A stretch of 64,000 nt of DNA, taken from Protonemura montana. Taxonomy: Eukaryota; Arthropoda; Insecta; Plecoptera; Nemouridae. The translations under genes were made by a program, and so were the position numbers. How positions within the stretch are numbered: the first letter of the stretch is position 1; every line of letters begins with the position of its first letter. The notes beneath the pieces are model-generated. The model saw only the letters and a program-made list of their open reading frames with translations. It was not told the origin of the DNA and made no database searches. This document shows positions 1 through 64,000 of this stretch, piece after piece. The stretch is from contig CANOQG010000002.1 in NCBI GenBank assembly GCA_947568835.1, forward strand, positions 186,001-250,000, in the 5' to 3' direction.

Positions 1-209
1 AGTTGATCGTCTCGAGCAACACCACCTTCACCAAGAACATCGTGTACCAGGAGGTGCTCGAGATTCATGCGCCGAACCACCAGGCAGCGGATCCTTCCTC
101 GCGTAGTGGCTATCAAGAGGCTGACCAGCAGGCCCTTGAGCAGTCGCTTAGTCAACTCGCTGTATCGGATGCGGATGAAGAAGTTCCAATGGACACCTCC
201 TCCTCCTAA
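1..209 (+). CDS. RepHel protein, C-terminal fragment (RepHel-1)
   Basis: This is the last part of a Helitron Rep/helicase gene that starts before the window. The frame is open from the first bases and ends at TAA 207-209. The 68 visible residues match the C-terminal tail of the intact gene at 38492-44173 with very few changes (for example NHQ for DHQ) and end in MDTSSS. The tail lies beyond the last helicase motif, is rich in Gln, Ser and acidic residues, and has no catalytic residue. The first codon in view is TTG, but it is internal, not a start. Whether the missing part is intact cannot be judged here. Confidence 0.88.
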   Translation, partial: LIVSSNTTFTKNIVYQEVLEIHAPNHQAADPSSRSGYQEADQQALEQSLSQLAVSDADEEVPMDTSSS

Positions 210-497
210 ATCCTATCATTGTTCTATCCCTTACATTTGCAATAGCGGTAAAATTTCCTAGATAAATTTAAATTCAGTAATGCTAGGTAGGGCAGACCAG
301 GAACCGTGACTAGCACGGCAGGTAGCAACCCAATTCCCATATATTTCACCATGCTGACACGCTTTTCTGCTGCAGGTATAAAGCACCGGACGCCGCATAG
401 CCCTTTAACTTCACGACCATTGCGCTCGCATGTGGACACTCTAACGGAACTGCTCCTCCCAGAGCTAGACAATTATGCATGTAAATTAATTGATAGA

Positions 498-1000
498 TTA
501 TATTGTACATACATTTAGTAAAGTAGTTACTTCTAACTAATAGTATTAGAAATGCAGCCTGCTGTTTTCCATCTGCATGTCATGCATGTTCCAAAAAAAA
601 TAAAAATAAAAATAAAAAACATATCGTAGATTTATTAAAGTAGTTACTAAGTAGTAAGTAGTAGTAGTTGGTAAGCAAGTAGTAAATAGTTATGCAACCT
701 GCTGTTTTCCATCTGCATGTCATGCATGTTCAAAAAAACAAAAAAACAAAAAAAAATCATAGATTTAGTAAAGTAGTTACTAAGTAGTAAGTAGTAGTAG
801 TTGGTAAGTAAGTAGTTTATAGTTATGCAACCTGCTGTTTTCCATCTGCATGTCATGCATGTTCAAAAAAACCAAAAAACCAAAAAAAAATATCATAGAT
901 TTAGTAAAGTAGCTACTAAGTAGTAAGTAGTAGTAGTTGGTAAGTAAGTAGTTAATAGTTATGCAACCTGCTGTTTTCTATCTGCATGTTTGCAATTTTT
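498..1000 (+). repeat. Subterminal tandem repeat, about 135-bp unit, 4 copies
   Basis: Each unit carries a TTAGTAAAGTAGTTAC-like block, a GTAG/TAAG-rich stretch, CCTGCTGTTTTCCATCTGCA, a TGCATGTCATGCATG near-palindrome and an A-rich spacer of A-runs broken by C. The first copy (498-593) is the most diverged. The same repeat lies in the same place in E6 (about 34593-34945, 3 copies) and E7 (about 44528-45010, 4 copies), so copy number varies between otherwise near-identical elements. Confidence 0.85.
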
Positions 1001-1272
1001 TTAAGGTCACAATCTTACTTTCGTGTCGGTCTTTTTACTGCATGTTTCTCTTTTCTTGATTCCATCTTGGAATGTCAAACCAACTAACCACCAAGCATGA
1101 TAGCATTGCACCAGTCTAAAAACTGAACAATGCATCCTACCTATCCGACACAGTTGATCCTTGCATGAATCCTTGCATGTCCGCACATCAGAGATTCCTG
1201 TTGCTTGCAACGGGCTGCACAATCTTTGATAGTGTAAGGCAGAGGCGATGTAGTGTGCGACGATCGCCATGC

Positions 1273-1299
1273 TGCCGGGGCGGGATGGGGGCCCCGGCA
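1273..1299 (+). other. GC-rich 9-bp hairpin in Helitron tail
   Basis: TGCCGGGGC (1273-1281) and GCCCCGGCA (1291-1299) are perfect inverted repeats around the loop GGGATGGGG. It stands out in AT-rich DNA and recurs unchanged at 35177-35203 (E6) and 45427-45453 (E7). The G-runs could also stack. Its role is unknown; an RNA structure in the 3' UTR is possible. Confidence 0.75.
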
Positions 1300-2018
1300 T
1301 AACAAATATTTTTAAAATTCTCTCACTTAACAGCTTGAATACATTTAGAAACTTTTCATTTCTCCAAGAATGGTGCCTCGCTCTTGCCGTCTATTTTTAT
1401 TTTGTTTTAGACCCCCCCTCCCCCTGCCAATCGTGGAGAAGGAACTTCTTCATGGCACCATTGCGGAGATTACTTTCAATTACGAATGAACAGTGGCGAT
1501 ACTGCGACATGGCTGGTCTGCATTGACTGTTGCTTTCAAATGGTCAAAGTTTTCAACGCAAATCGTCGTAAACATGTGAATATTTCTTATATTTGTAAAA
1601 ATGATCATAATATTGGCAAATAAAAATTACAATAATGAATAGGTACATTTTTGTGTGTTTAATCTTCAAAAAAAAAAAACCTTCGTCGCTGAAACCAAAC
1701 CAAAAATATTTGTAATGATTCCTTTCTGTCCAAAAAGCACACCAAATGGTTGTGTCCTTATAAGCAATGCTGCTGGTTAGCCATCATCGTTGAAGGTACT
1801 GGCGGAAATCAGGTATAGTATGGTATATCAAGTCGTAAGAGCATAATACTTTGTTTTCTTGCCATTTTTTCAGTACTTTATTTTGTTGTCCCATAAAAGT
1901 TTCTTAAATGTATGCGTAGAGGCTACATTAAGTGCTAAGTCTCAGTTCGGTCCCAGGGCTTAGGGACTAGATTTTGGCCTAGGCCCATATATTTTTGTCA
2001 TGATCTATCCTATCGGCA

Positions 2019-2035
2019 TATGCCCTATGGGCATA
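2019..2035 (+). other. 7-bp hairpin about 130 nt before the 3' terminus
   Basis: TATGCCC-TAT-GGGCATA. Identical copies are at 35919-35935 (E6) and 61391-61407 (tail of chimera E11); E7 keeps a 6-bp version (46239-46253). It is separate from the terminal Helitron hairpin and may be an accessory terminator or RNA structure. Confidence 0.6.
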
Positions 2036-2161
2036 GGGTACTAGAAAAACAGTAGTGAGCTTTTTTTAATTGTTAATCCAAGTTCAAAGACAATACTAAT
2101 ACTAAAATAAAACCACTCGGGATAAGAACAACAGGTGCCGTTAGGCATCGGGTACTGCTAG

Positions 2162-5100
2162 TTAACCTTATATAAAAGCCTTAAAATGTGATGTTCAACT
2201 TTTTAGTTTGTGGGTGGGTGGCTGGCTGGCTGGCTGGGATGTAACCGGCCGCTCTACTGGTTATGGAAATTGCGAAATGCGACTCAATACGTACGAAAAT
2301 GGGCTAGCATTTTTCAGAATTAACTTTTCCATTGGCAGGCGACATTTTCACAGCGATTTAAAATCGTTTTCATGGTGAAAAGTTGCTAAATATGACGGCA
2401 AGATATCTCAGAGCCAGGCGATGCAGCTCGATTTTTAAAACTCTTTTTATACCAAAGTTTTTCTAGCCTTGAGCTCCACGGTTATTTTTCATGCATTTGT
2501 AATAAAGTTGTTGATGTAATTGAGCGAAAACACATTCAATTGCGATCGTTTTACGTAAAAAAGAATTAATTTTGCTAATAAACTGACAGCTTTGATCAAT
2601 TGTTTGCTTTTTTGACACCACGGCAAGGTGTACGAAATCGTAAATGTATCTTTTCGGCAGTGCATTCAGGAAATTCAAACGTCAAATTTAAACGTCAAAG
2701 TCAACGTCAATGTCAAATTCAATTTCAAAATCTCCAAAACTGAACGGAAAACGTGTAAAATTGGCTTCTATTGTTCAAATACAGTTTTATATCCCGCTAC
2801 GTCTTTTTCACGATGATTTAAAAGTGTTTTAGTATAGTAAAGTATCAAAAATATTGTTGGTGTTCGGCTATCAAGATACAAAAGAGTCACTTGATTGATC
2901 TCGACATTGTATGGTATTGTATATGATTGTATTATACTGCATGGTATTGTATGGTATTTTATTGTTATGTATGGTATTCTTTGGTATTGGATGTTTTTGG
3001 ATGGTATTTAATATTATTGTTTGATATTGTATGGTATTATTTAGTATTCGACAGTATTCTATGGTATTCTATGGTATTCTATGGTATTCTATGGTGTTCT
3101 ATGGTGTTCTATGGTGTTCTATGGTGTTCTATGGTGTTCTATGGTATTCTATGGTATTCTATGGTATTCTATGGTATTCTATAATATTCGATGAATTTCT
3201 ATGAATTTCTATGGTATTCTATGGTATTGTATGGTATTGTATGGTATTGTTTGTTATTCTAAGGTATTCTTTGGTATTCTATGGTGTTCTATGGTGTTCT
3301 ATGGTGTTCTATGGTGTTCTATGGTATTCTATGGTATTCCATGGTATTCTATGGTATTCTCTAATATTCTATGAAGTTCTATGATATTCTATGATATTGT
3401 ATGGTATTGTATGGTATTGTATGGTATTATATGGTTTTCTATGGTATTTAATGGTTTCTATGGAGTTTTATGGTATTCTATGATATTGTATGGTATTCTA
3501 TGGTCTTCTATGGTATTCTATGTTATTGTATGGTATTCTATTGAATTATATAATATTATATGGTATTCTATGGTATTCTATGGTATTCAATGGTATTCTA
3601 TGGTATTTTATAATATTCTTCGGAGTTCTATGGTATTATATGGAGTTAATGGTATTCTATGGTGTTCTTTGGTGTTCTATGGTGTTTTATGGTATTGTTT
3701 TGTGTTCTATGGTGTTCTATGGTATTCTATGGTATTCTATAGTGTTCCATGGTGTTCTATGGTGTGCTATGGTATTCTATGGTATTCTATTGTGTTCTAT
3801 GGTATTCTTTGGTGTTCTATGGTATTCTAAGGTATTCTATGGTATTCTATGGTATTCTATGGTATTTTATAATATTCTATGGTATTCTATGGAGTTCTAT
3901 GGTATTCTATGATATTGTATGATATTCTATGGTATTATATGGTATTCTTTGGTATTCTATGGTATTCTATGGTAATCTATGGTGTTCTTTGGTATTCTAT
4001 GGTGTTCTATGGTATTCTATGGCATTCTATGGTAATCTATGGTATTCTTTGGTATTCTATGGTATTCTATGGAGTTCTATGGAATGCTATGGAATTCTAT
4101 AGTATTCTGTTGTAATCTAAGAATTCTATGGTATTCTATGGTATTCTATGGTATTTTATGGTTTTAATGGTATTATATGGTATTCTTTGGTATTCTTTGG
4201 AATTCTTAGGTATTTTTTGGTATTCTATAGTATTCTTTGGTATACTATGGTATTCTAAGTTATTCTATGGAGTTTTATGGTATTCTTTGATATTGTATGG
4301 TATTGTATGGTATTCTATGGAATTATATGATATTGTATGGCATTGTATGGTGTTCTTTGGTATTCTATGGTATTCAATGATATTCTACGGTATTCGATGG
4401 TATTCTATGGTATTCTACGGTATTTTATGGTATTCTATGGTAATCCATGGTATTCTATGGTATTCTTTGGTATTCTTATGTATTCTTTGGTATTATATGG
4501 TATTGTTTAGTATTTTATGGTATTCTATGGTATTCTATGGTATTCTATAGTATTCGAAGGTATTCGAAGGTATTCTTTGGTATTCTATGGTATTCTTTGA
4601 TATTGTATGGTTTTCTATGGTATTCTATGGAATTCTTTGATATTGTATGGCATTGTATGGTATTTTATGGTATTTTATGTTATTATTTGATATTGTATGG
4701 TATTCTATGGTATTCTATGGAATTCTATGATATTTTATGGTATTCTATGGTATTGTATGGTATTGTATGGTATTGTATGGTATTGTATTGTATTCTATGG
4801 TATTCTATGGTATTGTATGGTATTGTTTGGTTTTGTTTGGATGTGTATGGTATTAAATGTTTGTGGATGGTATTCTATGAAATTTTATGGGTTTCTTTGA
4901 TATAATATTGTTCTCTATGGTATTTGGAGGTATTCGATAGTATTATTTGGTATTCTATGATGTTGTATGGAATGGTATGGTATTCCATATGTTCCTATGG
5001 GTTTCTATATTATTTTATGGTTTTTTTTTGGTATCCTCTGGTATTTTATGAGTTTCAATGGATTTCTATGGTATAAGAAGATACTTTATGGTGTTGTTAG

Positions 5101-5391
5101 GAATTGAATGGTATTCGATGATACAGTTTGGTATTTTTAGGTATTCTATGGTATTGTATGGTATTGTATGGTATTCTTTTGTATTGTATGGTATTCTAGG
5201 TCCCCTTTGGTATTGTATGATATTGTTTGGTATTTTATGGGTTTGTTTGGTATTTTATGGCATTTTATTGTATTGTATTGTATTGAATGGAATTTCATGG
5301 TTTTCTATCAAAGAAAACTCGAGACACGTTTAAACCAAAATGCCCACTCCCTCAAAATCGTAAGGTGCCGTTAGGCATCGGGTACTGCTAG
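2162..5391 (+). mobile_element. E2: non-autonomous Helitron, subfamily A (3230 bp)
   Basis: It starts TTAACCTTATATAAAAG directly after E1's CTAG and ends with hairpin plus CTAG at 5388-5391. The first 740 bp or so carry the 5' region shared by the family, including a conserved AAGATATCTCAGAGCCAGGC block and GTCAA-type direct repeats at about 2678-2720. The rest is the 10-bp minisatellite and an 80-bp tail. There is no Rep or helicase sequence, so it would depend on RepHel supplied by another copy. Confidence 0.88.
2904..5310 (+). repeat. 10-bp minisatellite array in E2
   Basis: About 240 units of TTCTATGGTA, with a run of GGTGTTCTAT variants near 3090-3140 and again near 3280-3320, and more degenerate GGTATTGTAT and GTTTGGTAT units toward the 3' end. 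ORFs across it (for example 3381-3830, 4447-4905) all spell variants of MVFYGILWYS and are a product of the repeat. The last third is similar to 8500-9060 in E3. Confidence 0.95.
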
Positions 5392-8300
5392 TTAACCTTA
5401 TATAAAAGCTTTAAATTGCGATGTTCAACTTTTTAGTTTGTGGGTATGTGGGTGGATGGCTGGGATGTAACCGGCCGCTCTACTGGTTATGGAAATTGCG
5501 AAATGCGACTCAAAACGTACGGAAATCGGCTAGAATTTTTCAGAATTAACTTTTACATTGGCAGGTGATATTTTCACAGCGATTTAAAATCGTTTTCATG
5601 GTGAAAAGTTGCTAAATATGACGGCAAGATATCTCAGAGCCAGGCGATGCAGCTCGATTTTTACAACTCTTTAATACTCAAGTTTTTCTAGCCTCGAGCT
5701 CCACGGTGATTTTTCATGCATTTGTATTAAAGTTGTTGATGTAATTGAGCAAAAACACATTCAATTGCGATCGTTTTAAGTGAAAAAGAATTAATTTTGC
5801 TAATAAACTGACAGCTTTGATCAATTGTTTGCTTTTTTGACACCACGGCAAGGTGTACGAAATTGTGAATGTATCTTTTCGGCAGTGCATTCAGGAAATT
5901 CAAACGTCAAATTTAAACGTCAAAGTCAACGTCAATGTCAAATTCAATTTCAAAATCTCCAAAACTGAACGGAAAACGTGTGAAATTGGCTTATATTGTT
6001 CAAATACAGTTTTACATCCCGCTGCGTCTTTTTCACGATGATTTAAAAGTGTTTTAGTATAGTAAAGTATCAAAAATATTGTTGGTGTTCGGCTAGCAAG
6101 ATACAAAAGAGTCACTTGATTCATCTCGACATTGTATGGCATTGTATAAGATTGTATTATACTGCATGGTATTGTATGGTATTTTATTGTTATGTATGGT
6201 AATCTTTGGTATTGGATGTTTTTGGATGGTATTTAATATAATTGTTTGATATTGTATGGTATTGAATGAAAATGTATGGTATTCTTTAGTATTCGACAGT
6301 ATTCTATGGTATTCTATGGTGTTCTATGGTGTTCTATGGTATCCTATGGTATTCTATGGTATTCTATAATATTTAATGAATTTCTATGGTATTCTATGGT
6401 ATTGTATGGTATTGTATGGTATTGTATGGTATTCAAAGGTATTCTTTGGTATTCTATGGTGTTCTATGGTGTTCTATGGTGTTCTATGGTATTGTATGGT
6501 ATTCTATGGTATTCTATGGTATTCTATAATATTCTATGAAGTTCTATGGTATTCTATGATATTGTATGGTAATGTATGGTATTGTATGGTATTGTATGGT
6601 ATTGTATGGTATTGTATGGTATTGTATGGTATTCTATGGTATTTCATGGTATGCTATGGAGTTATATGGTATTCTATGGTCTTCTACGGTATTCTATGGT
6701 ATTCTATGGTATTCAATGGTTTTCTATGGTATTTTATAATATTCTACGGAGATCTATGGTATTATATGGAGTTAATGGTATTCAATGGTGTTCTATGGTG
6801 TTCTATGGTATACTATGGTATTCTATGGTTTCATTGGTGTGCTATGGTATTCTAAGGTATTCTATTGTGTTCTAAGGTATTTTTTGGTGTTCTATGGTAT
6901 TCTATTGTATTCTATGGTATTCTATGGTATTTTATAATATTCTTTGGTATTCTTTGGAGTTCTATGATATTCTATGATATTGTATGGTATTGTTTGGTAT
7001 TCTATGGTATTCTTTAGTATTCTATGGAGTTCTAGAGTATTCTATTATATACTATGGTATTCTATAGAGTTCTTTGGTATTCTATAATATTCTATGGTAT
7101 TCTATGGTGTTCTATGGTATTCAATGGAGTTCTATGGTATTCAATGGAGTTCTATAATATTATATGGAGTTAATGGTATTCTATGGTGTTCTTTGGTGTT
7201 CTATGGTGTTTTATGGTATTCTTTTGTGTTCTATGGTATTCTATTGTGTTCTATGGTATTCTTTTGTGTTCCATGGTATCCTATTGTGTTCTTTGGTATT
7301 CTATTGTGTTCTATGGTATTCTATTGTGTTCCATGGTATTCTATTGTGTTCTATGGTATTCTGTGGTGTTCTATGGTATTCTATGGTATTCTATGGTATT
7401 CTATGGTATTCTACGGTATTTTATGGTATTCTATGGTATTCTTTAATATTCTATGAAGTTCTATGGTATTCTATGATATTGTATGGTATTGTATGGTATT
7501 GTATGGTATTGTATGGTATTGTATGGTATTCTATGGTATTCTATGGTATTCTATGGTATTCTATGGTATTTCATGGTATGCTATGAAATTATATGGTATT
7601 CTATGGTCTTCTACGGTATTCTATGGTATTCTATGGTATTCAATAGTTTTCTATGGTATTTTATAATAATCTACGGAGTTCTATGGTATTAAATGGAGTT
7701 AATGGTATTCTTTGGTGTTCTATGGTGTTTTATGGTGTTCTATGGTGTTCTATGGTGTTTTATGGTATTCTATTGTGTTCTATGGTATTCTATTGTGTTC
7801 TATGGTATACTATTGTGTTTTATGGTATTCTGTGGTGTTCTATGGTATTCTATGGTATTCTATGGTATTCTATGGTATTTTATGGTATTTTATGGTATTC
7901 TTTGGAGTTCTATGGTATTCTATGATATTCTTTGCTATTCTATGGTATTCTTTGGCATTCTATGGTATTCTTTGGTATTCTATAAAGTTCTATAGTATTC
8001 TATTATATACTATGGTATTTTATAGAGTTCTTTGGTATTCTATGATATTCTATGGTATTCTATGGTATTCTATGGTATTCTATGGTAATCTATGGTGTTA
8101 TATGGTGTTTTATGGTGTTCTATGGTATTCTATGGCATTCTTTGGTATTCTATGGTATTCTATGGTATTCTATGGAGTTCTATAGAATTCTATGGATTTC
8201 TATGGTTTTATGTTGTAATCTAAGAATTATATGGTATTCTTTGGCATTCTATGGTATTCTATGGTATTTTATGGTATTCTATGGTATTCTATGGTATTCT

Positions 8301-9143
8301 TTGGTATTCTAAGTTATTCTATGGAGTTATATGGTATTCTTTGATATTGTATGGTATTCTATGGTATTCTATGGAATTCGATGATATTGTATGGCATTGT
8401 ATGGTTTTCTATGGTATTCTATGGTATTCTATGGTATTCTATGGTAATCCATGGTATTCTATGGTATTCTATAGTATTCTATGGTATTCTATGGTATTCT
8501 ATGGTATTCTATAGTATTCTTTGGTATCCTATGGTATTGTATGGTATTGTTAGGTTTTGTTTGGAAGTGTATGGTATTTAATGTTTTTGGATGGTATTCT
8601 ATGAAATTTTATGGGTTTCTTTGATATAATATGGTTCTCTATGGTATTTGGAGGTATTCGATAGTATTATTTGGAATCCTATGATGTTGTATGGAATGGT
8701 ATGGTTTTCCATATGTTCCTATGGGTTTCTTTATTATTTTATGGTATTTTTTGGTATCCTCTGGTATTTTATGAGTTTCAATGGATTTCTATGGTATAAG
8801 AAGATACTTTATGGTGTTGTTAGGAATTGAATGGTATTCGATGATACAGTTTGGTATTCGTAGGTATTCTATGGTATTGTATGGTATTGTATGGTATTCT
8901 TTTGTATTGTATGGTATTCTAGGTCCCCTTTGGTATTGTATGATATTGTTTGGTATTTTATGGGTTTGTTTGGTATTTTATGGCATTTTATGGTATTGTA
9001 TTGTATTGAATGGAATTTTATGGTTTTCTTAGGGTTTCTTTGGTATTGAATGGTTTTCTATCAAAGAAAACTCGAGACACGTTTAAACCAAATGCCCACT
9101 CCCTCAAAATCGTAAGGTGCCGTTAGGCAGCGGGTACTGCTAG
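5392..9143 (+). mobile_element. E3: non-autonomous Helitron, subfamily A (3752 bp)
   Basis: It starts TTAACCTTATATAAAAG after E2's CTAG. It ends with the TGCC-GTTA-GGCA hairpin and a GCGGG spacer variant before CTAG 9140-9143. It is near-identical over about 3.7 kb to 57361-61110 (E11), including the order of minisatellite variants, so these two are recent copies of one element or products of conversion. There is no protein-coding gene beyond repeat-derived ORFs. Confidence 0.9.
6129..9062 (+). repeat. 10-bp minisatellite array in E3
   Basis: TTCTATGGTA units with blocks of ATTGTGTTCTATGGT (7220-7370, 7770-7830) and runs of GGTATTGTAT (6570-6620, 7480-7520). It begins directly after CTCGACATTGTATGG and ends just before a TCAAAGAAAACTCGAG tail. 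Short stretches recur inside it, pointing to unequal exchange. Confidence 0.95.
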
Positions 9144-9889
9144 TTAACCATATATAAAAGCCTTAATTTAGCGATGTTCAACTTTTTAGTTTGTATCTGG
9201 CTGGGATGTATGTGACGTTAGCTGAAATGTTGATAGAAATTGCGAAATTTGGTCAAAAACGTGTGCAATTGGGTTATATTTGTTCGTAATTCTGCTCTCC
9301 ATTGCTGGGTGACATTTTGACGGCGATTTGAGAGCGTTTTCATGGTGAAAAGTTGCTAAATATGACGGCAAGATATCTCAGAGCCAGGCGATGCAGCTCG
9401 ATTTTATAACTCTTTTAATACTCGAGTTTTTCTTGCCTAGAGCTCCACGGTGATTTTTCATGCATTCGTATTAAAGTTGTTGATGTAATTGAGCGAAAAC
9501 ACATTCAATTGCGATCGTTTTACGTGAAAAAGAATTAATTTTGCTAATAAACTGACAGCTTTGATCAATTGTTTGCTTTTTTGTCACCACAGCAAGGTGT
9601 ACGAAATCGTGAATGTATCTTCTCAGCAGTGCATTCAGGAAATTCAAACGTCAAATTTAAACGTCAAAGTCAACGTCAAAATAAACGTCAATGTCAAATT
9701 CTTTTCAAAATCTCCAGAACTGAACGGAAAACGTGTGAAATTGGCTTAATTTGTTCAAATACAGTTTTACATCCCGCTACGTCTTTTTCACGATGATTTA
9801 AAAGTGTTTTAGTATAGTAAAGTATCAAAAATATTGTTGATGTCTTGGCTAGCAAGATGAATAAGAGTCACTTGATTTATCTCGATTTT

Positions 9890-11033
9890 TGATTGATGCA
9901 AAACTTGCCTCTTACTGACCTGCAGCAATTCGATAATACTTTGCATGCATGCCTGTTTCAGTTATTGAAGAAATTGAGTGAAAACGCTTTTATTCGCGAT
10001 CGGTTTACTTAAAATAGAAATAATTTATGCAAACATTTGTTTGGTTTTTTGACCACTGCAAGGCGAAAGAATTCTTAAAGTTATCTTTTCATTTCAAAAA
10101 GGATTGGAAAGTTAAACGATCTATTTACACCTCTATTGGAATTGGAATATCGAAAATCGGTCAAAAACGGCTGGAATTTGAACATAAATTCTGATCGCGA
10201 CCCAAAGCGATATTTCTACGAGGATTTTATGAGATTTTCATGAGACATTTTTTTTAAAACTGGCTGGCAAGGAAAGATTTTGACAGTTATCAAACAATGC
10301 ACAACAACTACATTTTCGAAGAAACTTATTTTATCAATTTTAAGTTGCTATCCGTCTTTTAAACATGTTTTTCGTAAGATTTGGTGGAGATGTAACACGT
10401 GTTTAATAAGTTTTACTCTCTAAGAAAGATTTCAAGAAATCATGGACGGAAATCTTTTGACAGCCAGCATCGTTTGTTTTCGAAATTGTCATCGTGATCA
10501 CTTTGGAATTCACAGAGTTTCCACAATGCAGTGACCCCGAGTGACATAAGCGGCAAATTTCAAATACAAAGAAAGCGTTTCAAAACATGAAAAGAACATT
10601 GCTATGAAAATGTGCAGCGTAATAGACGGCTGAAAGTGGTTTAATTTTGCACATTATACAAAATTGTTGATTCTTTACAGATGGGATCACACAACTTTAT
10701 GGAAATAAATCTTCTTTTTTGTTATGTTAAGTTTCAATGCGTGTTTTTAATGTTTTTTAAGTAATATTTAGTAAATATTCAACCCGTATTTAATCTTATC
10801 TCTCAAAGATAGATTATTACAATTTTTGACCACATTATTATGACAGCTAGCGTCAATCATTTGCTTGAATCTTTAATTTTTTGCTTGATTCAAAACTTGA
10901 ATCTGATAGACATGATTGAGGAATGAACTGGAAATACGAAGCATTAAAAACATTTTCAATATATATATTTTGTTTAATTTTTTTATTTATATTCAGTTAT
11001 TACAATATTGTTTATTATATATTATTATATGTA
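9890..11033. other. AT-rich stretch of E4 without a gene
   Basis: No supported gene. About 9900-10085 is a diverged second copy of the 5' module at about 9440-9600, with the same order of blocks (GCATGC, GAAATTGAG, GCGATCG, TTTGACCACTGCAAGG). The same diverged version occurs at about 16080-16310 in E5. The rest is unassigned AT-rich sequence. Two AATAAA signals read on the minus strand lie at the right end (about 10981-11016). Confidence 0.6.
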
Positions 11034-11040
11034 TAACTAT

Positions 11041-11075
11041 TAACTAATAACTAATAACTAATAACTAATAACTAA
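11041..11075. repeat. 7-bp simple repeat (TAACTAA)5
   Basis: Five perfect TAACTAA units followed by degenerate ones up to about 11092. It abuts the stop codon of the candidate minus-strand gene. Confidence 0.9.
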
Positions 11076-11085
11076 TAAATATTAA

Positions 11086-12271
11086 CTAATAACAACTGCG
11101 GCCGCAGTGGCTCGGACGGCAGCTCGGGCTGCGGCTTCTGTCGCGGCGCTCCGGGCGACGGTGGCTGCAGCAGCTGGTGTTGTCGGGGCTGCAGCCCCCT
11201 CTCCCCCCGAAGCGCTGGCCGCGACGTTGCTCCCGTGATGGCCCAGGCTGTTGTTCGCGGGGGCGACCTGCCACGGCTGTAGCCCCCGCGACTATCAATG
11301 TCACCTGGGCCTCGGCCCTAGCCAGCCGCTCCCGCGCCAGCTGCTCGGCTGCAGCGACAATAGCTGCAGCAGCGACGCGGGCTTCTTTAACGATGGCCCG
11401 GGCCTCTTCACGGGCGTCCTCTTCTGTGGCAGGAGCCGCAGCCTCCGCCTCCGCCTCCGTCTCGCTCTCTAATGGAAATTAAAAATTACACTGCTCAGAG
11501 AATGTTTGATGATTTAAATCATATTTAATAACAATATCCGGAATATCCTGTCTTGACTGCGTTTCATGTTAAGATTGAGAGTGGATTTCCATATTCCTCA
11601 GGGACTTTCTGATTTTTGACACGAGCTAAGAGTTTTTCAAAATAACAAGCAATTCCTTGAGTCTGACAAAATGCTTCATGGGCAGTTTACAAACTATTAT
11701 ATGTTCATGCCTAGCTTCAGTGGAGCCTTGATGAAAGTTTTAAAATACTCGCCTTATTGACGTGAAATGGACTTAAGATACCCAATATCGAGCAGTGTAA
11801 AGAACCATAAAATATTGGCTTCCTTAAGTTTCATTGATAATATAAGAACGATCACAAACATCCAAAAATAAGTTATACGTAGGTTAGAACGTATCCAGTG
11901 AGATGAACATATCAAAAACTGCACCACTATATAACTCAAAACATATCCATTTAATATCAGGGTATACCTATTGCCTAAACATGTCTTATCTTATATAATA
12001 ATGTATAGTATTTTGATAACCACGGCTAAGAAAAGTAAGAAAGACAATTTAACTCACCAAATTCTGTTTCTTGCGAACTGAAAATTGCACCCATCGTGTT
12101 TACTTTCTTGATTCCTGCTGAATGCTCGGTTAGGCGATTACCCGTGTCATATGTTCTAACAATGTGATCCAACCAGATATCGATCATACTGAACATACTG
12201 AACATTCGATATATGAGGTGATTGTTACATGGATATTTATGCAAATCGCATTTGCAGGCCAATCTCAACAT
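11086..12271 (-). CDS. Candidate two-exon minus-strand gene in E4, Ala/Glu-rich protein of unknown function
   Basis: Exon 1 reads 12271 to 12058 and ends at a strong donor (GTGAGT from 12057). Exon 2 starts at 11468 after an acceptor-like TTTCCATTAG and runs to TAG at 11088-11086. The phases match: exon 1 leaves one base, and joining opens the frame ESETEAEAEAAAPATEED, giving about 198 residues. Exon 1 includes WLDHIVRTYDTGNRLTEH; exon 2 is an Ala/Glu/Arg-rich likely coiled coil followed by an Arg/Gly-rich end. Exon 2 is a GC-rich island in AT-rich DNA. AATAAA signals follow about 70-105 bp past the stop. Another ATG in good context at 12353-12351 opens only 13 codons. I do not recognise the protein; it may be a captured host gene fragment. 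The first exon and start are uncertain. Confidence 0.42.
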
Positions 12272-12645
12272 TCGATTTGTAGAGCGATTGTTGTTGGTCC
12301 CATTCGATTAGTCACTGCCTCATTGTCGTCGAACTGTTTGCGATGGCAGCCATGTTTGTTCTTCTCTTTTCTCACTAGCTAGACAGACGTTAAAGAAGCC
12401 GGTTTACTTTATCGTATCTCCAGTTGATAATTACCATTTCATAGTGTTATTACTGTCACGTTGGTTTGAATTGGTCTTAAATTGGATCATTATATCTAAT
12501 ATTGTGATTTGGTGCAATTTTCATTGATTGCGAGTCGCAAATCAACCGATAAATCAAGTGTGAAGTTAATCTTTTCAAGACCCTGGCCGTGGACCGGTCA
12601 ATACGGCAATCCTGTAAGTACCGAATCTACTATACCTACATAGTG

Positions 12646-12671: not shown

Positions 12672-12722
12672 AATATACATTGTTTAATGGAATTGAATAG
12701 CATGATAGCTTAGTTTACCCAC

Positions 12723-53000: not shown

Positions 53001-56000
53001 TTAACCTTATATAAAAGCTTTAAATTGCGATGTTCAACTTTTTAGTTTGTGGGTAGGTAGGTGGGTCTCTGGGATGTAACCGGCCGCTCTACTGGTTATG
53101 GAAATTGTGAAATGAGACTCAAAACGTATGGAAATGGGCTAGAATTTTTCAGAATTAACTTTTACATTGGCAGGCGACATTTTCACAGCGATTTAAAATC
53201 GTTTTCATGGTGAAAAGTTGCTAAATATGACGGCAAGATATCTCAGAGCCAGGCGTTGCAGCTCGATTTGATAATTATTTTAATACTCAAGTTTTTCTAG
53301 CCTGGAGCTCCACGGCGCATTTTCATGCATTCGTATTAAAGTTGTTGATGTAAGTGAGCGAAAACATATTCAATTGCGATCGTTTCACGTGAAAAAGAAT
53401 TAATTTTGCTAATAAACTGACAGCTTTGTTCAAATGTTTGCTATTTTGTCACCTCGGCAAGGTGTACGAAATCGTGAATGTATCTTCTCAGCAGTGGATT
53501 ATCAGGCCAAATTAAACGTCAAATTCAAACGTCAAAGTCAACGTCAATGTCAAATTATTTTCGAAATCTCCAGAACTGAAGGAAAAACGTGTGAAATTGG
53601 CTTACATTGGTTCATAATTCAGGTTTACATCCCGCTACGTCTTTTTCACGGTAATTTCAAAGTGCATTATTATAGTAAAGTATCAAAAATATTGTTAGTG
53701 TCTTGGCAAGCAAGATGAAAAATAGCCACTTGACAAGCCCGTGGCATTCTTGTGGAGATTATTTACACGTCAAAAAGGTTTGTAAAGTTAAACAATCTAT
53801 TAACACAACTATTGGAATCTTTTGTAAACATATTTAAAGATATTTATTGTAAATAGTATACGAATGACGAGAAATGTCGTGAAAATACGACGATTTTTCT
53901 TCATCCCCTGCCTAGACAAGATCACACAGTTGATTCCAAGCCATCAATGATATTTGTGACAATTATGTAAATCAATAACAATCCTAACTTTCTTTGCAGG
54001 TCTTTAAGACATTAAATAGGGTTTTTAAACAAACAAAACACACTTAATTAGTTTTTTATTGATAATTTAGCCAAAACTAGATTTAGAGTGACATTGACAG
54101 ATCAAAGATAAACATTTGACAGATATCTTTCATCGAATCAGGACGCCGTGGATTTTTATTTTATTTTCGAGAATGCCGTGATCATTCAACAGGTATTTAA
54201 ATTCAAAACGTCATTAATGACAGATTGCAGTTTTATCAAATCTAATCCAAATACGCAATCTTAGTTTCATATGGTTTTCTATGGAATTGTATAATATTGT
54301 ACAGCACTTTATGGTGTTCTTTGGAAGTCTATGGTACAAGGTGTTATTGTATGATATTGTATGGCATTCTATGTTATTCTATGGTATTCTATGGTGTTCT
54401 ATGGTATACATTGATATTCTAAGGTATTCTATGGTATTCTATGGTATTCAATGGAGTTCTATGGAGTTCTATGGTATTCTATGGAGTTCTATGATATTCT
54501 ATGGAGTTATATGATATTCTATGGTGTTCTATGGTATTCTTTGGTATTCTATGTATTCTATTGTATTCTATGGTATTCTATGGTATTCAATGGTGTTCTA
54601 TGGTATTGTATGGTATTGAATGGAGTTTTATGGTAATCTATGGTATTCTTTTGAGTTCTATGGTATTCTATGGTATTCAATGGTATTCTATGGTATTCTA
54701 TGGGGTGCTATGGTATTCTATGGTATTCTATAGAGTGCTATGGTATTATATGGTATTGTTTGGTATTCTATGGTATTCTATCGATATCTTTTGTATGATA
54801 TGATATTGTATGGTATTGTATGGAGTTCTATGGTATTCTATGGTATTGTTTGGTATTCTATGGTGTTCTATGGTATTGTATGGTATTCTATGGTATTCTA
54901 TCGTATTCTATGGTATTCTATGGAGTGCCCTGGTATGTTATGATATTCTATGGTATACTATGGTATTCTATGGTGTTCTATGGTGTTCTTGGGTGTGCTA
55001 TGGTATTCTATGGTATTCTATTGTGTTCTATAGTACTCTTTGGTGTTCTATGGTATTCTATGGTATTCTATGATATTTTATGGTATTCTATGGTATTCTA
55101 TGGTATTTTATGGTATTCTATGGTATTCTATGGAGTTCGAAGGTATTCTATGATATTATATGGTATTCTATGAAGTGCTATGGTATTCTATGATATTCTA
55201 TGGTATTGTATGGTATTTTATGGTATGGTATGGTATGGTATTTAATGGTATTCTATGGTATTCTTTAGAGTTATATGGTATTCTATGGTATTCAATGGTA
55301 TTCTATGGTATATTATAATATTCTACTGAGTTCTATGGTATTATATGGAGTGAATAGTATTCTATGGTGTTCTATGGTGTTCTATGGTGTTTTATGGTAT
55401 TCTATGGTATTCTATGGTGTTTTATGGTGTTCTTTGGTGTGCTTTGGTATTCTATGGTATTCTATTGTATTCTATGGTTTTCTTTGGTGTTCTATGGTAT
55501 TCTATAGTATTCTATGGTATGTTATGGTATTCTATGGTATTCTATGGTATTTTATGGTATTCTATGGTATTCTATGGAGTTCTATGATATTCTATGATAT
55601 TGTATGGTATTCTATGGTATTCTTTGGTATTTTATGGTATTCTATGGTATTCTATGGTATTCTATGGTATTCTATGGAGTTCTATGGTATTCTATGATAT
55701 TGTATGGTATTCTATGGTATTCTATGGTATTCTTTGGTATTCTATGGAGTTCTATAGTATTCTATTATATACTATGGTATTCTATAGAGTTCTTTGGTAT
55801 TCTATGATATTCTATGGTATTCTATGGTGTTCTATGGTATTCAATGGAGTTCTTTAATATTATATGGAGTTAATGGTATTCTATGGTGTTCTATGGTGTT
55901 CTATGGTGTTTTATGGTATTCTATTGTGTTCTATAGTGTTCTATGGTATTCTATGGTATTCTATGGTATTCTATGTTATTCTATAATATTCTATGAAGTT

Positions 56001-57360
56001 CTATGGTATTCTATGATATTGTATGGTATTGTATGGAACTGTATGGTATTTTATGGTATTATATGGTATTATATGGTATTTAATGGTATTATATGGAGTT
56101 ATATGGTATTCTATGATATTGTATGGTATTCTATGGTCTTCTACGGTATTCTATGGTATTCTATGGTATTATTTTGTATTATATTATATTATATGGTATT
56201 CTATGGTATTCTATGGTATTCAATGGTATTCTATGGTAATTTATAATATTCTACGGAATTCTATGGTATTTTAAGGAGTTAATGGTATTCTATGGTGTTC
56301 TATGGTGTTCTATGGTGTTTTATGGTATTCTATTGTGTTCTATGGTATTCTTTGGTATACTATGGTATTCTATGGTGTTCCATGGTGTTCTTTGGTGTTC
56401 TATGGTATTCTATGGTATTCTATGGTATTGTATGGTATTCGATGGTATTCTATGGTATTTTATTGTATTCTATGGTATTCTATGGAGTTCTATGGTGTTC
56501 TATGATATTATATGGTATTCTATGGTATTCTATGGTATTCTATGTTGTCCTATGGTATTCTATGGAGTTCTATAGTATTATATGATATAGTATGGTATTC
56601 TTTGATATTGTATGGTATTCTATGGTAGTGTATGGTATTCTATGGTATTCTTTGGTATTCTATGGTATTCTTTGATATGCTTTGGTATTTTATGGTATTG
56701 TTTGGTTTTGTTTGGAAGTGTATGGTATTAAATGTTTTTGGATGGTATTCTATAAAATTTTGAGGGTTTCTCTGAAATAATATGGTTCTCTATGGTATTT
56801 GGAGGTGTTCGATTGTATTATTTGGTAGTCTATGATGTTGTATGGAATGGTATGGTATTCCATGGGTTCCATGGGTTTCTATATTATTTTATGGTATTGT
56901 TTGGTATCCTCTGGTATTTTATGAGTTTCTATGGATTACAATGGTATTATAAGGTACTTTATGGTGTTGTTAGGAATTGAATTGTATTCGATGATATAGT
57001 TTGCCATTCTTAGGTTTTCTATGGTATTGTATGGTATTGTATGGTATTGTATGGTATTTTAGGAACTCTTTGGTATTGTATGATATTGTTTAGTATTTAA
57101 CGGGTTTGTTTGGTATTCTATGGTATTTTATGGTATTGTATTGTATTGAATGGAATTTTATAGTTTTCTTAGGGTTTCTTTGGTTTTGAATGGTTTTTTA
57201 TGGTATTTTATGATATTCTATGGTATTGCATGGTATTGCATGGCTGTGGTCCTTTTAAGAGGCTTTAGATAGGGCATCAAAGAAAACTCGAGACACGTTT
57301 AAACCAAAATGCCCACTCCCTCAAAATCGTAAGGTGCCGTTAGGCATCGGGTACTGCTAG
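53001..57360 (+). mobile_element. E10: non-autonomous Helitron (4360 bp), subfamily B 5' part
   Basis: It starts TTAACCTTATATAAAAG and ends with the canonical hairpin and CTAG 57357-57360. At about 53490-53520 it carries GGATTATCAGGCCAAATTAA, like the autonomous E6 and E7, next to the GTCAA repeats of the non-autonomous units, so the 5' part looks recombinant. The exon-like module is at 54000-54192. Its 3' part (about 56690-57360) resembles E2 and E3 (subfamily A), so it is a B/A mosaic. Confidence 0.88.
54270..57245 (+). repeat. 10-bp minisatellite array in E10
   Basis: The largest array, close to 3 kb. Segments resemble E3 (the GGAGTTAATGGTATTCTATGG junctions at about 55865 and 56275, ATTGTGTTC units), in line with a subfamily A origin of the 3' half. 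Single long ORFs such as 55275-55697 are repeat by-products. Confidence 0.94.
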
Positions 57361-58101
57361 TTAACCTTATATAAAAGCTTTAAATTGCGATGTTCAACTT
57401 TTTAGTTTGTGGGTATATGGGTAGGTGGATGGCTGGGATGTAACCGGCCGCTCTACTGGTTATGGAAATTGCGAAATGCGACTCAAAACGTACGGAAATC
57501 GGCTAGAATTTTTCAGAATTAACTTTTACATTGGCAGGTGATATTTTCACAGCGATTTAAAATCGTTTTCATGGTGAAAAGTTGCTAAATATGACGGCAA
57601 GATATCTCAGAGCCAGGCGATGCAGCTCGATTTTTACAACTCTTTAATACTCAAGTTTTTCTAGCCTCGAGCTCCACGGTGATTTTTCATGCATTTGTAT
57701 TAAAGTTGTTGATGTAATTGAGCAAAAACACATTCAATTGCGATCGTTTTAAGTGAAAAAGAATTAATTTTCCTAATAAACTGACAGCTTTGATCAATTG
57801 TTTGCTTTTTTGACACCACGGCAAGGTGTACGAAATTGTGAATGTATCTTTTCGGCAGTGCATTCAGGAAATTCAAACGTCAAATTTAAACGTCAAAGTC
57901 AACGTCAATGTCAAATTCAATTTCAAAATCTCCAAAACTGAACGGAAAACGTGTGAAATTGGCTTATATTGTTCAAATACAGTTTTACATCCCGCTGCGT
58001 CTTTTTCACGATGATTTAAAAGTGTTTTAGTATAGTTAAGTGTCAAAAATATTGTTGATGTTCGGCTAGCAAGATACAAAAGAGTCACTTGATTCATCTC
58101 G

Positions 58102-61052
58102 ACATTGTATGGCATTGTATAAGATTGTATTATACTGCATGGTATTGTATGGTATTTTATTGTTATGTATGGTAATCTTTGGTATTGGATGTTTTTGGAT
58201 GGTATTTAATATAATTGTTTGATATTGTATGGTATTGAATGAAAATGTATGGTATTCTTTAGTATTCGACAGTATTCTATGGTATTCTATGGTGTTCTAT
58301 GGTGTTCTATGGTATCCTATGGTATTCTATGGTATTCTATAATATTTAATGAATTTCTATGGTACTCTATGGTATTCTATGGTATTGTATGGTATTGTAT
58401 GGTATTCAAAGGTATTCTTTTGTATTCTATGGTGTTCTATGGTGTTCTATGGTGTTCTATGGTGTTCTATGGTATTGTATGGTATTCTATGGTATTCTAT
58501 GGTATTCTATAATATTCTATGAAGTTCTATGGTATTCTATGATATTGTATGGTAATGTATGGTATTGTATGGTATTGTATGGTATTGTATGGTATTGTAT
58601 GGTATTGTATGGTATTCTATGGTATTTCATGGTATGCTATGGAGTTATATGGTATTCTATGGTCTTCTACGGTATTCTATGGTATTCTATGGTATTCAAT
58701 GGTTTGCTATGGTATTTTATAATATTCTACGGAGATCTATGGTATTATATGGAGTTAATGGTATTCAATGGTGTTCTATGGTGTTCTATGGTATACTATG
58801 GTATTCTATGGTTTCATTGGTGTGCTATGGTATTCTAAGGTATTCTATTGTGTTCTAAGGTATTTTTTGGTGTTCTATGGTATTCTATTGTATTCTATGG
58901 TATTCTATGGTATTTTATAATATTCTTTGGTATTCTTTGGAGTTCTATGATATTCTATGATATTGTATGGTATTGTATGGTATTCTATGGTATTCTTTAG
59001 TATTCTATGGAGTTCTAGAGTATTCTATTATATACTATGGTATTCTATAGAGTTCTTTGGTATTCTATAATATTCTATGGTATTCTATGGTGTTCTATGG
59101 TATTCAATGGAGTTCTATGGTATTCAATGGAGTTCTATAATATTATATGGAGTTAATGGTATTCTATGGTGTTCTTTGGTGTTCTATGGTGTTTTATGGT
59201 ATTCTTTTGTGTTCTATGGTATTCTATTGTGTTCTATGGTATTCTTTTGTGTTCCATGGTATTCTATTGTGTTCTTTGGTATTCTATTGTGTTCTATGGT
59301 ATTCTATTGTGTTCCATGGTATTCTATTGTGTTCTATGGTATTCTGTGGTGTTCTATGGTATTCTATGGTATTCTATGGTATTCTATGGTATTCTACGGT
59401 ATTTTATGGTATTCTATGGTATTCTTTAATATTCTATGAAGTTCTATGGTATTCTATGATATTGTATGGTATTGTATGGTATTGTATGGTATTGTATGGT
59501 ATTCTATGGTATTCTATGGTATTCTATGGTATTCTATGGTATTTCATGGTATGCTATGAAATTATATGGTATTCTATGGTCTTCTACGGTATTCTATGGT
59601 ATTCTATGGTATTCAATAGTTTTCTATGGTATTTTATAATAATCTACGGAGTTCTATGGTATTAAATGGAGTTAATGGTATTCTTTGGTGTTCTATGGTG
59701 TTTTATGGTGTTCTATGGTGTTCTATGGTGTTTTATGGTATTCTATTGTGTTCTATGGTATTCTATTGTGTTCTATGGTATACTATTGTGTTTTATGGTA
59801 TTCTGTGGTGTTCTATGGTATTCTATGGTATTCTATGGTATTCTATGGTATTTTATGGTATTTTATGGTATTCTTTGGAGTTCTATGGTATTCTATGATA
59901 TTCTTTGCTATTCTATGGTATTCTTTGGCATTCTATGGTATTCTTTGGTATTCTATAAAGTTCTATAGTATTCTATTATATACTATGGTATTTTATAGAG
60001 TTCTTTGGTATTCTATGATATTCTATGGTATTCTATGGTATTCTATGGTATTCTATGGTAATCTATGGTGTTATATGGTGTTTTATGGTGTTCTATGGTA
60101 TTCTATGGCATTCTTTGGTATTCTATGGTATTCTATGGTATTCTATGGAGTTCTATAGAATTCTATGGATTTCTATGGTTTTATGTTGTAATCTAAGAAT
60201 TATATGGTATTCTTTGGCATTCTATGGTATTCTATGGTATTTTATGGTATTCTATGGTATTCTATGGTATTCTTTGGTATTCTAAGTTATTCTATGGAGT
60301 TATATGGTATTCTTTGATATTGTATGGTATTCTATGGTATTCTATGGAATTCGATGATATTGTATGGCATTGTATGGTTTTCTATGGTATTCTATGGTAT
60401 TCTATGGTATTCTATGGTAATCCATGGTATTCTATGGTATTCTATAGTATTCTATGGTATTCTATGGTATTCTATGGTATTCTATAGTATTCTTCGGTAT
60501 TCGAAGGTATTCTTTGGTATCCTATGGTATTGTATAGTATTGTTAGGTTTTGTTTGGAAGTGTATGGTATTTAATGTTTTTGGATGGTATTCTATGAAAT
60601 TTTATGGGTTTCTTTGATATAATATGGTTCTCTATGGTATTTGGAGGTATTCGATAGTATTATTTGGAATCCTATGATGTTGTATGGAATGGTATGGTTT
60701 TCCATATGTTCCTATGGGATTCTTTATTATTTTATGGTATTTTTTGGTATCCTCTGGTATTTTATGAGTTTCAATGGATTTCTATGGTATAAGAAGATAC
60801 TTTATGGTGTTGTTAGGAATTGAATGGTATTCGATGATACAGTTTGGTATTCGTAGGTATTCTATGGTATTGTATGGTATTGTATGGTATTCTTTTGTAT
60901 TGTATGGTATTCTAGGTCCCCTTTGGTATTGTATGATATTGTTTGGTATTTTATGGGTTTGTTTGGTATTTTATGGCATTTTATGGTATTGTATTGTATT
61001 GAATGGAATTTTATGGTTTTCTTAGGGTTTCTTTGGTATTGAATGGTTTTCT
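58102..61052 (+). repeat. 10-bp minisatellite array in E11
   Basis: Near-copy of the E3 array (6129-9062), with the same series of variants. Small differences include one fewer repeat at about 59500 and a local change near 60490-60540 (TATTCTTCGGTATTCGAAGG). Confidence 0.94.
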
Positions 61053-61112
61053 ATCAAAGAAAACTCGAGACACGTTTAAACCAAATGCCCACTCCCTCAA
61101 AATCGTAAGGTA

Positions 61113-61505
61113 ATCAAATGGTTGTGTCCTTATAAGCAATGCTGCTGGTTAGCCAGCATCGTTGAAGGTACTGGCGGAAATCAGGTATAGTATGGTATAT
61201 CAAGTCGTAAGGGCACAATACTTTGTTTTCTTGCCATTTTTTCAGTACTTTATTTTGTTGTCCCATAAAAGTTTTTTAAATGTATACGTAGAGGCTACAT
61301 TAAGTGTAAAGTCTCAGTTCGGTCCCAGGGCTTAGGGACTAGATTTTGGCCTAGGCCCATATATTTTTTTCATGACTTATCCTATCGGCATATGCCCTAT
61401 GGGCATAGGGTACTAGAAAAATAGTAGTGAGCTATTTGTCATTGTTAATCAAAGTTCAAAGACAATACTAATACTTAAATAAAACCACTAGGGATAAGAA
61501 CAACA
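61113..61505 (+). other. Autonomous-type tail segment in E11
   Basis: No gene. It is the last 0.4 kb of the E1/E6/E7 tail (AAATGGTTGTGTCCTTATAA, GGTACTGGCGGAAATC, the TATGCCC hairpin) joined to a non-autonomous body. Confidence 0.85.
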
Positions 61506-61533
61506 GGTGCCGTTAGGCATCGGGTACTGCTAG

Positions 61534-64000
61534 TTAACCTTATATAAAAGCTTTAAAATTGTGATGTTCAACTTTTTAGTTTGTGGGTGGGTGGCTGGGT
61601 GGATGGGTGGATGGCTGGGATGTAACCGGCCGCTCTACTGGTTATGGAAATTGTGAAATGAGACTCAAAACGTACGAAAATGGGCTAGAATTTTTCAGAA
61701 TTAACTTTTACATTGGCAGGCGACATTTTCACAGCGATTTAAAATCGTTTTCATGGTGAAAAGTTGCTAAATATGACGGCAAGATATCTCAGGGCCAGGC
61801 GATGCAGCTCGATTTTTATAATTCTTTTAAAATTCAAATTTTTCTAGCCTCGAGCGTCGCGTTGATTTCATGCATTCGTATTAAAGTTGTTGATGTTATT
61901 GAGCGAAAACACATTCAATTGCGATCGTTTTACGTGAAAAAGAATTAATTTTGCTAATAAACTGACAGCTGTGATCAATTGTTTGCTTTTTTGGCACCAC
62001 GGCAAGGTGTACGAAATCGTGAATGTATCTTTTCGGCAGTGCATTTAGGAAATTCAAACGTCAAATTTAAACGTCAAAGTCAACGTCAATGTCAAATTCA
62101 ATTTCAAAATCTCCAGAACTGAAGGAAAAACGTGTGAAATTGGCTTATATTGGTTCAAATTCAGGTTTACATTCCGCTACGTCTTTTTCACGGTGATTTT
62201 TAAGTGCATTATTATAGTAAAGTATCAAAAATATTGTTGGTGTCTTGGCTAGCAAGATGAAAAATAGCCACTTGACAAGTCCGTGGCATTCTTGTGGAGG
62301 TTATTTACACGTCAAAAAGGTTTGGAAAGTTAAACAATCTATTAACACAACTATTGGAATCTTTTGTAAATATATTTAAAGATATTTATTGTAAATAGTA
62401 TACGAAAGTCAAGAAATTTCTTAAAATACGACGTTTTTTCTCCATCCCCAGCCTAGACAAGATCATACAGTTGATTCCAAGCCATCAATGATATTTGTGA
62501 CAATTATGTAAATCAATAGCAATCCTAACTTTCTTTGCAGGTCTTTAAGACATTAAATAGGGTTTTCAAACAAACAAAACATACTTTATTAGTTTTTTAT
62601 TGATGATTTTGCCAAAACTAGGTTTAGAGTGACATTGACAGATCAAAGATAAACATTTGACAGATATCTTTCATCGAATCAGGACGCAGTGAATATTTAT
62701 TTAATTTTCGACGATGCCGTGATCATTCAACAGGTATTTAAATTCAAAATGTCATTAATGACAGAGTGCAGTTTTATCAAATCTAATCCAAATACGCAAT
62801 CTAAGTTTAATATGGTTTTCTATGGAATTGTATAATATTATATAGTACTTTATGGTGTTATATGGTGGTCTATGTTATTCTATGGTATTCTATGGTATTC
62901 TATGGAGTTCTAAGGTATTTTATGATATTGTTTGGTATTCTATGATATTTTTGGGTATTGTATGGTATTCTATGATATTCTATGGTATTGGATGGTATTC
63001 TATGGTATTCTATGGAGTTGTATGGTATTCTATGGTATTATATGGTATTCTATGGAGTTCTATGGTATTCTATGATATTGTATGGTATACTATAGTATTC
63101 TATGGTATACTATGGTATTCTATGGTATTCTATGGTATTTTATGGTATTCTATGGTATTCTATAGTGTTCTATGGTATTCTATGGTATTCTATGGAGTGC
63201 TACGGTACGCTATGGTATTCTATAGAGTGCTATGGTATTCTATGATATTCGATGGTATTCTATAGAATGCTATGGTATTCTATGATATTTTATGGTATTG
63301 TATGGTATTCTATGGTATTCTATGGAGTGCTATGGTATTCTATGGTATTCTAGGGTATTCTATTGATTTCTATTGTATTCTTTGAAATTGTATGGTATTG
63401 TATAGAGTTCTGTGGAATTCTATGGTATTCTATGGTATTCTATAGAATTCTATGGCATTCTATGATATTCTATGGTATTTTATGGTATTCTATGATATTG
63501 GATGGTATTCTATGGTATTCGAAGGAGTTTTCTGGTATTCTATGGTATTCTATGGTATTCTATGGTATTCTATGGTATTCTATGGTATTCTTTGGTATTG
63601 TATGGTATTCTATGGTATTCTATAAAGTGCTATGGTATTCTATGATATTCTATGGTGTGGTATGGTATTCTATGGTATTCTATAGAGTGCTATAGTATTC
63701 TATGGTATTCTATTGCATTCTATGGTATTCTATTGATTATTATTGTATTCTATGATATTGTATGGTATTGTATGGTATTATATGTTATTGTATGGATTTA
63801 TATGGTATTATATGGTATTCTATGGTATTCTATGGTATTCTATGGTTTTCTATAATATTCTATGGCAATCTATGGTATTCTATGATCTTCTATGGTATTC
63901 TATGGAGTGTTATGGTATTCTATGGAGTGATATGGTATTCTATGGTATTGTATGGTATTGTATGATATTGTATGGTATTGTATGGTATTGTATGGTATTC
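61534..64000 (+). mobile_element. E12: non-autonomous Helitron, subfamily B, cut by window end
   Basis: It starts TTAACCTTATATAAAAG after E11's CTAG. The 5' region (GTCAA-type repeats at about 62057-62099, exon-like module at 62541-62733) matches E5, E8, E9 and E10. The 3' end is outside the window. Confidence 0.88.
62810..64000 (+). repeat. 10-bp minisatellite array in E12, incomplete
   Basis: TTCTATGGTA units with many GAGTGCTATGG variants (63190-63340, 63620-63700) that are rare in the other arrays, so this copy expanded on its own. It continues past the window. Confidence 0.94.

Follow-up and report, generated by a model that had tools for sequence, protein, structure and literature searches.

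The 64,000-nucleotide stretch of the Protonemura montana genome analysed here (hereafter the window; positions 186,001 to 250,000 of contig CANOQG010000002.1, forward strand) consists of Helitron units that follow one another head to tail with no base between them. Counts of their ends and junctions suggest that the window is probably part of a near-megabase array, built by repeated joining in trans at the termini of resident copies and then reworked by block spread and recombination. Tandem Helitrons are already known; the array here is real, and it is larger than first reported. The contig, C7, is 925,000 bp long in a genome of 258.5 Mb and 34 contigs, and the window is C7:186001-250000. Along C7, which was sampled and not read throughout, family units run from C7:8789, where the first unit follows A, to autonomous-type 3' ends at C7:919,940.

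A reading made from the letters of the window alone (the sequence-only reading) had described ten zero-spacer junctions in one orientation, separating at least eleven units, plus one nested copy. Rechecking all ten positions bore this out: CTAG|TTAACC stands at 10 of 10 on the plus strand without a spacer, and the minus strand of the 64-kb window carries no copy. The junction 10-mer is expected by chance 0.04 times per 64 kb on the plus strand (first-order Markov model, mean of 100 simulations). The unit count holds as well, with the first and last units cut by the window edges and the nested copy lying at 15819-19442. The junctions are as follows:

2161/2162, 5391/5392, 9143/9144, 27025/27026, 36063/36064, plus strand, CTAG|TTAACC
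46382/46383, 50128/50129, 53000/53001, 57360/57361, 61533/61534, plus strand, CTAG|TTAACC

Unit boundaries are fixed because the nested copy can be compared with matching uninterrupted sequence in two autonomous units, U4 and U5 (units are numbered U0 to U10, as listed further below). The occupied site reads ...GATAAA|TTAACC ... CTAG|TCGC, so that the copy sits between A and T without a target-site duplication. This empty-site comparison sets the 5' terminus at TTAACC, which begins with TT and not with the usual TC. The 3' terminus is CTAG, both in the nested copy, bounded by the empty site, and at the ten junction ends, the latter having been found by a CTAG-based search.

Joining is exact at this terminus throughout the genome. 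The exact 5' end (TTAACCTTATATAAAAGC) occurs 969 times, 659 times after G and 310 times after another base. A genome search for CTAG-TTAACC junctions, which the sequence-only reading had suggested, found 644 with zero gap, that is, 644 of the 659 G-preceded ends and of the 969 overall; 5'-variant copies, such as the one at 9143/9144, fall outside this count. Two A|T sites lie 9 and 11 bp inside the 5' end TTAACCTTATATA, and they account for 4 exact arrangements, two each, versus 644 at the terminus itself. These numbers support terminus-exact joining that goes beyond a liking for AT-rich DNA.

The outer ends of the arrays carry A and T. Among the first 100 listed of the 310 non-G 5' flanks, 98 are A and 2 are T; the 98 include one damaged junction (C4:71808) and two ends that lie a short way within a resident 5' end. 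Across the window and the fetched loci, all 26 complete units without an upstream junction follow A, one of them at a damaged junction, and all 19 complete units without a downstream junction precede T. Exact 3' ends of the pattern GCAKCGGGTWCTGCTAG with a next base other than T number 7 genome-wide, T-followed ends being uncounted by this pattern. Because outer 5' flanks are A and 3' flanks are rarely other than T, arrays sit in single A|T targets. We fetched 30 non-G 5' ends: in 16 a junction follows, 5 belong to single copies and 9 are indeterminate within 1.5 kb, although one of these nine (L030) heads the L052 array; L019 and L020 lie in a duplicated region of C1. Since many non-G 5' ends lead into junctions, arrays stand at many separate host sites.

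Ends of different kinds meet at these junctions. We counted haplotypes by coordinate over 78 junctions and 46 adjacent complete pairs (L003 lies within L050). Over the 78 junctions, 51 combinations occur between 19 haplotypes on the left (-36 to -5) and 13 on the right (+19 to +27). The haplotype graph contains 20 independent cycles, with 17 left when haplotypes seen at least three times are used, 18 without the C1 region and 11 without C7. The closest variable sites flanking the junction are 27 nt apart, and all four of their combinations are present (27, 19, 19 and 13 of 78). The 51 combinations imply either that different 3' and 5' ends were joined many times, or that exchange within a short interval was frequent.

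How might repeated joining work? A HUH transposase, which needs exact end nicks to start and stop transposition, would use the same nicks on resident copies as preferred targets. By a 5'-side route, an incoming CTAG-OH would be joined to a resident 5' end, where the host A and the element's first T make up a normal A|T target. By a 3'-side route, an incoming 5' end would be joined to a resident CTAG end, and growth would take place on the 3' side. Each event would leave a new exact junction and keep the outer A and T. Later on, some blocks of several units may be mobilised as one, plausibly when an internal 3' terminator is bypassed, and recombination inside units would shuffle bodies and duplicate segments. 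The Helraiser transposase is reported to cut exactly: at the 5' end it cleaves the top strand where flank and element meet, at the 3' end it cleaves both strands, and in ~11.7% of events it bypasses the 3' end (PMC4778049).

The sequence-only reading had offered two origins, repeated targeting of an existing terminus and a rolling-circle concatemer. The first gains support from the excess of junctions at the exact terminus over the sites inside it, from the A and T at array ends and from the variety of end combinations; a simple concatemer, weighed below, is unsupported as the main source. We also consider a broader proposal, with somewhat under an even chance of being right: that these Helitrons address themselves, the transposase acting in trans and across subfamilies and preferring the ends of resident relatives to AT sites in the host. 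Each array would then behave as a modular composite transposon, its multi-unit blocks moving and nesting whole, and near-megabase arrays would form around intact autonomous copies.

Recombination alone is a serious rival, although we judge it unlikely as the full account. It supposes that a few founding junctions, for example from a Helitron circle or dimer, were multiplied by circle integration, unequal crossing-over and gene conversion, with exchange within the shared ~500-bp 5' and ~400-bp 3' regions and with transposition only seeding sites, partly as multi-unit blocks. Several observations speak for it and weigh against repeated joining. Neighbours share a 3' haplotype in 19 of 46 pairs, compared with a shuffled mean of 13.8 (reached in 0.75% of shuffles), and in 15 of 39 pairs without the duplicated C1 region (mean 10.7; 3.65% of shuffles). 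Distances correlate across a junction (rho 0.34, n=56) no less strongly than inside one unit (rho 0.27, n=59), a result that pure independent insertion does not predict; without C1 the values are 0.35 and 0.21. This test left out the C7 loci and the window, as did a comparison of C3 and C4 in which two junctions share a block of ~1.1 kb, centred on the junction and 98.3% alike, that stops inside both units. One junction, alpha-beta, is common to five loci on C1 and C2. From ~700 bp into alpha through beta, pairs of these loci differ by 0.3-1.4%, while divergence in the first, 5' part of alpha is patchy; alpha-beta forms the array head beside different flanks at two loci and the tail at one.

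Other repeated blocks point the same way. At C1:282-297k a 375-bp spacer is present twice with 1 difference, dimers show 0-1 (B) and 6-12 (A) differences, and the repeated dimer also ends beside a different flank. In-array duplicates occur in the arrangements AA and ABAB, and Helitron circles with exactly joined ends are described in the portion of the Helraiser work available to us (PMC4778049). Shared junctions exceed shuffles at a 1% cut-off (5 pairs; mean 0.46, maximum 4), are not clearly above them at 2% (14 pairs; mean 4.1, maximum 15) and are not above them at 3% (29; mean 11.4, maximum 43). A Mantel-type test of shared junctions gives r 0.55, reached by no shuffle but confounded by family structure. 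We read the shared blocks as the spread of multi-unit blocks followed by later recombination. To explain the junctions by recombination alone, exchange over very short intervals must be frequent, given that all four combinations are common across 27 nt and at least 20 recurrent events are needed; moreover, arrays begin at many different host A|T sites.

Branch lengths bear on the direction of growth under repeated joining. Terminal branches are longer in head units than in middle ones (median 0.0147, n=19, versus 0.0029, n=25; p 0.02 uncorrected), and the comparison of heads with tails gives p 0.085 (tails n=10). The head branch is the longer in 5 of 6 arrays with both ends measured, too few to decide. 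Here and in the distance correlations, identical units were counted once. Longer head branches, another point on the unfavourable side, argue against simple 5'-side growth, though heads and middles were sampled differently.

A simple rolling-circle concatemer, in which replication ignores the 3' terminator and places several copies of one element at a single site, would account for head-to-tail junctions without a spacer, for the shared orientation and for arrays bounded by A and T. Some neighbours do fit such local duplication: U4 and U5 are 98.5% alike over 5.6 kb, L050 has the arrangement AA at 99.7%, and L048 has ABAB. This origin has been proposed for bats (PMC2267711) and, for truncated copies, for plants (PMC12628747), as far as the accessible parts of these papers tell. 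It is nonetheless improbable here, because it predicts neighbours of the same type. Both end haplotypes are shared in 3 of 46 adjacent pairs, against a shuffled mean of 2.43, and in 1 of 39 (mean 1.85) once the duplicated C1 region is left out. Most neighbouring small units are 85-97.5% alike, hence 2.5-15% different, and in 36 of 40 cases the closest relative is a unit other than the adjacent one (a comparison confined to 40 small units of 850-1400 bp). Autonomous and non-autonomous units are, besides, intermixed.

An assembly artefact, with repeats chained by the assembler, is very improbable: C7 has a round length, but these junctions are also found on C1, C2 and C3, in arrays a few kb long that have outer flanks of their own, the units differ and can thus be ordered, and the 17 loci checked contain no N. 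Random insertion into AT-rich hot spots, including the TATA-containing 5' end, would suit the preference of Helraiser for AT-rich targets noted in the available text (PMC4778049), but we rejected it, as the least credible of all, on the count of 644 against 4.

Autonomous-type exact 3' ends number 157 genome-wide, and C7 holds 52 among the first 100 listed: 20 before 341 kb on the plus strand, 19 at 341-704 kb on the minus strand and 13 beyond on the plus strand. The minus-strand 3' end (C7:341157) and the minus-strand 5' end (C7:704021) abut plus-strand minisatellite, the flanking bases being A at one of them and T at the other. Most simply, C7:341157-704021 would be a 363-kb minus-strand array, its interior partly read, in a single A|T target inside one plus-strand unit; no empty copy of this insertion site was found.

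Strand changes in autonomous-type 3' ends also occur, among the matches listed, on two other contigs. On C8, 8 ends on the plus strand (186-274 kb) give way to 12 on the minus strand (300-506 kb), and on C4, 6 on the plus strand (328-486 kb) give way to 7 on the minus strand (626-719 kb). Most of the opening 10 kb of C4 (L012, C4:1-10000) is taken up by two satellites, one of 105 bp with 51.6 copies and one of 89 bp with 31.5 copies. The genome is very rich in TTAGG repeats, with 13,014 overlapping exact 30-mers, of which the 100 listed are scattered over C1 (e.g. C1:16524876-16526433); such abundance would suggest an arthropod.

Within the window, the units and their parts are laid out as follows, all on the plus strand unless stated:

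1..2161: U0, autonomous unit of which the window holds the 3' part; 94-99% like the U4 and U5 3' parts in the main matches
2134..2149: 3'-terminal hairpin of U0, with a 6-bp stem and a GTTA loop, ending 12 nt upstream of the unit's end
2162..5391: U1, non-autonomous, with a 10-bp minisatellite (ATGGTATTCT-like)
5392..9143: U2, non-autonomous minisatellite unit
9144..27025: U3, 17.9-kb autonomous-type unit of a second subfamily, split by the nested copy
13020-15863: U3 Rep open reading frame (ORF)
15819..19442: nested minisatellite copy within the coding part of U3, from empty-site comparison with U4 and U5
19572-22412: U3 helicase ORF
24781-25762: U3 36-bp tandem repeat array, 27.3 copies, with open frames on both strands
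27026..36063: U4, autonomous Helitron
28694..34237: U4 Rep-helicase gene, 1847 aa, open
36064..46382: U5, autonomous Helitron, the close relative of U4 noted above
38492..44173: U5 Rep-helicase gene, 1893 aa, open
46383..50128: U6, non-autonomous minisatellite unit
50129..53000: U7, non-autonomous minisatellite unit
53001..57360: U8, non-autonomous minisatellite unit
57361..61533: U9, non-autonomous, 3' end of autonomous type; ~96% like U0, U4 and U5 in the last 418-420 bp
61534..64000: U10, non-autonomous unit, cut by the window end

The sequence-only reading had called the array a mixture of autonomous, non-autonomous and chimeric units. The first two kinds are confirmed; the supposed chimera at 9144-27025 is instead an interrupted autonomous-type element with an extra repeat array, 84-89% like U4 across the coding part. 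U0 would start at C7:178959, judging from the preceding autonomous-type 3' end at C7:178958, with intervening junctions possible. The first 742 bp of U2 are 98.8% identical to U9 and 95.2% to the adjoining U1. The first ~530 bp and last ~400 bp are common to autonomous and several non-autonomous units while the bodies differ, and unit bodies therefore appear to have been exchanged between common ends. Rfam at gathering thresholds gave no match in the window. Pfam matches on the repeat ORF 24798-25787 of U3 and an ARAGORN tRNA-His at 19521-19592, which overlaps the start of the helicase ORF, were taken as spurious.

The U4 protein combines Rep and a PIF1-type helicase (Pfam: Helitron_like_N 5.5e-61, PIF1 1.9e-56, Pif1_2B, STPRs). 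It contains the motifs HAH, KYLCKYVYK and GPGGSGKT, among which we take the HUH and double-tyrosine signatures to lie. The Rep-helicases of U4 and U5 differ in their STPR repeats, encoded by a 69-bp repeat present in 4.3 and 6.3 copies, respectively. The fold with a GTTA loop recurs in three of four folded 3' ends, two of the three being identical in sequence, and the fourth has another stem; none of the four is more stable than shuffled sequence (z -0.36 to -1.07). The HUH Rep and PIF1-type helicase protein, the A|T insertion without duplication and the CTRR end with hairpin place the family in the Helitron superfamily. Its 5' TT departs from the canonical 5'-TC subtype and makes it a Helitron with a variant 5' end. 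Helitron2/Helentron elements insert between T and T and have asymmetric terminal inverted repeats; the A|T insertion here does not agree with that class, for which no search for terminal inverted repeats was made.

A search with the U4 protein gave 36 match rows, the best 25 of 2042 candidates having been scored, U4 itself included. Among rows of at least 1,618 aa, 21 of 24 lack an internal stop, at 98-100% identity; the choice of best candidates favours intact copies, so that this number shows that many open copies exist and not what share they make up. Because most of the longest Rep-helicase matches are uninterrupted, the family looks recently active.

Arguments over how tandem Helitrons arise have leaned on individual cases, one maize pair among them (PMC2267711). 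With hundreds of junctions and many open autonomous copies in one genome, the models become separable by counting. End-targeted joining, if true, would be an unusual way for a HUH transposase to choose its targets, one that concentrates insertions in self-DNA, and it would offer a route from transposon to satellite-like blocks. Tandem Helitrons are reported, in the parts of these papers available to us, from bats, maize, rice, Drosophila and one fungus (PMC2267711, PMC5876387, PMC5148889). Phrases for Helitron arrays gave a single mention, in one paper. A wider literature search found no comparable array, which is weak evidence because it covered titles and the beginnings of abstracts, with subscription papers sparsely represented.

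The closest parallel is the maize head-to-tail pair of Du et al. (2008), which, in the portion of the paper at hand, shares the exact junction of CTAG with a 5' end, the G/T contact and the joining of different elements (PMC2267711). Du et al. proposed insertion next to a resident, including into an A|T made of the host A and the resident's first T. Theirs is one pair with a 5' TC, whereas here there are hundreds of junctions with TT. In maize the left element occurs without the right one in three lines (PMC2267711). The tandem Helitrons of Myotis lucifugus (Pritham and Feschotte, as cited in PMC2267711) likewise have perfect head-to-tail junctions; by that secondhand account they were interpreted as tandem repeats, whereas neighbours here are mostly unlike.

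Three tandem Helitrons in Metarhizium acridum drew the same two explanations, twofold insertion at the 5' end or rolling circle, but the available text describes a single case, in fungi with mostly Helitron2-like elements (PMC5148889). Helraiser/Helibat1, so far as the accessible sections describe it, resembles the family here in A|T insertion, CTAG, the 3' hairpin, exactly joined ends and 3'-end bypass, and differs in its 5' TC as opposed to TT (PMC4778049, PMC5876387). Centromeric Helitrons of plants (Xiong et al. 2016, through the passages in PMC12628747) also form long tandem arrays of Helitron sequence, attributed to rolling-circle amplification of truncated copies. The copies there are described as truncated and partly decayed, and many of the arrays have several 5' ends to one 3' end (PMC12628747); here every junction brings a 3' end and a 5' end together, neighbours are unlike, and many genes are open.

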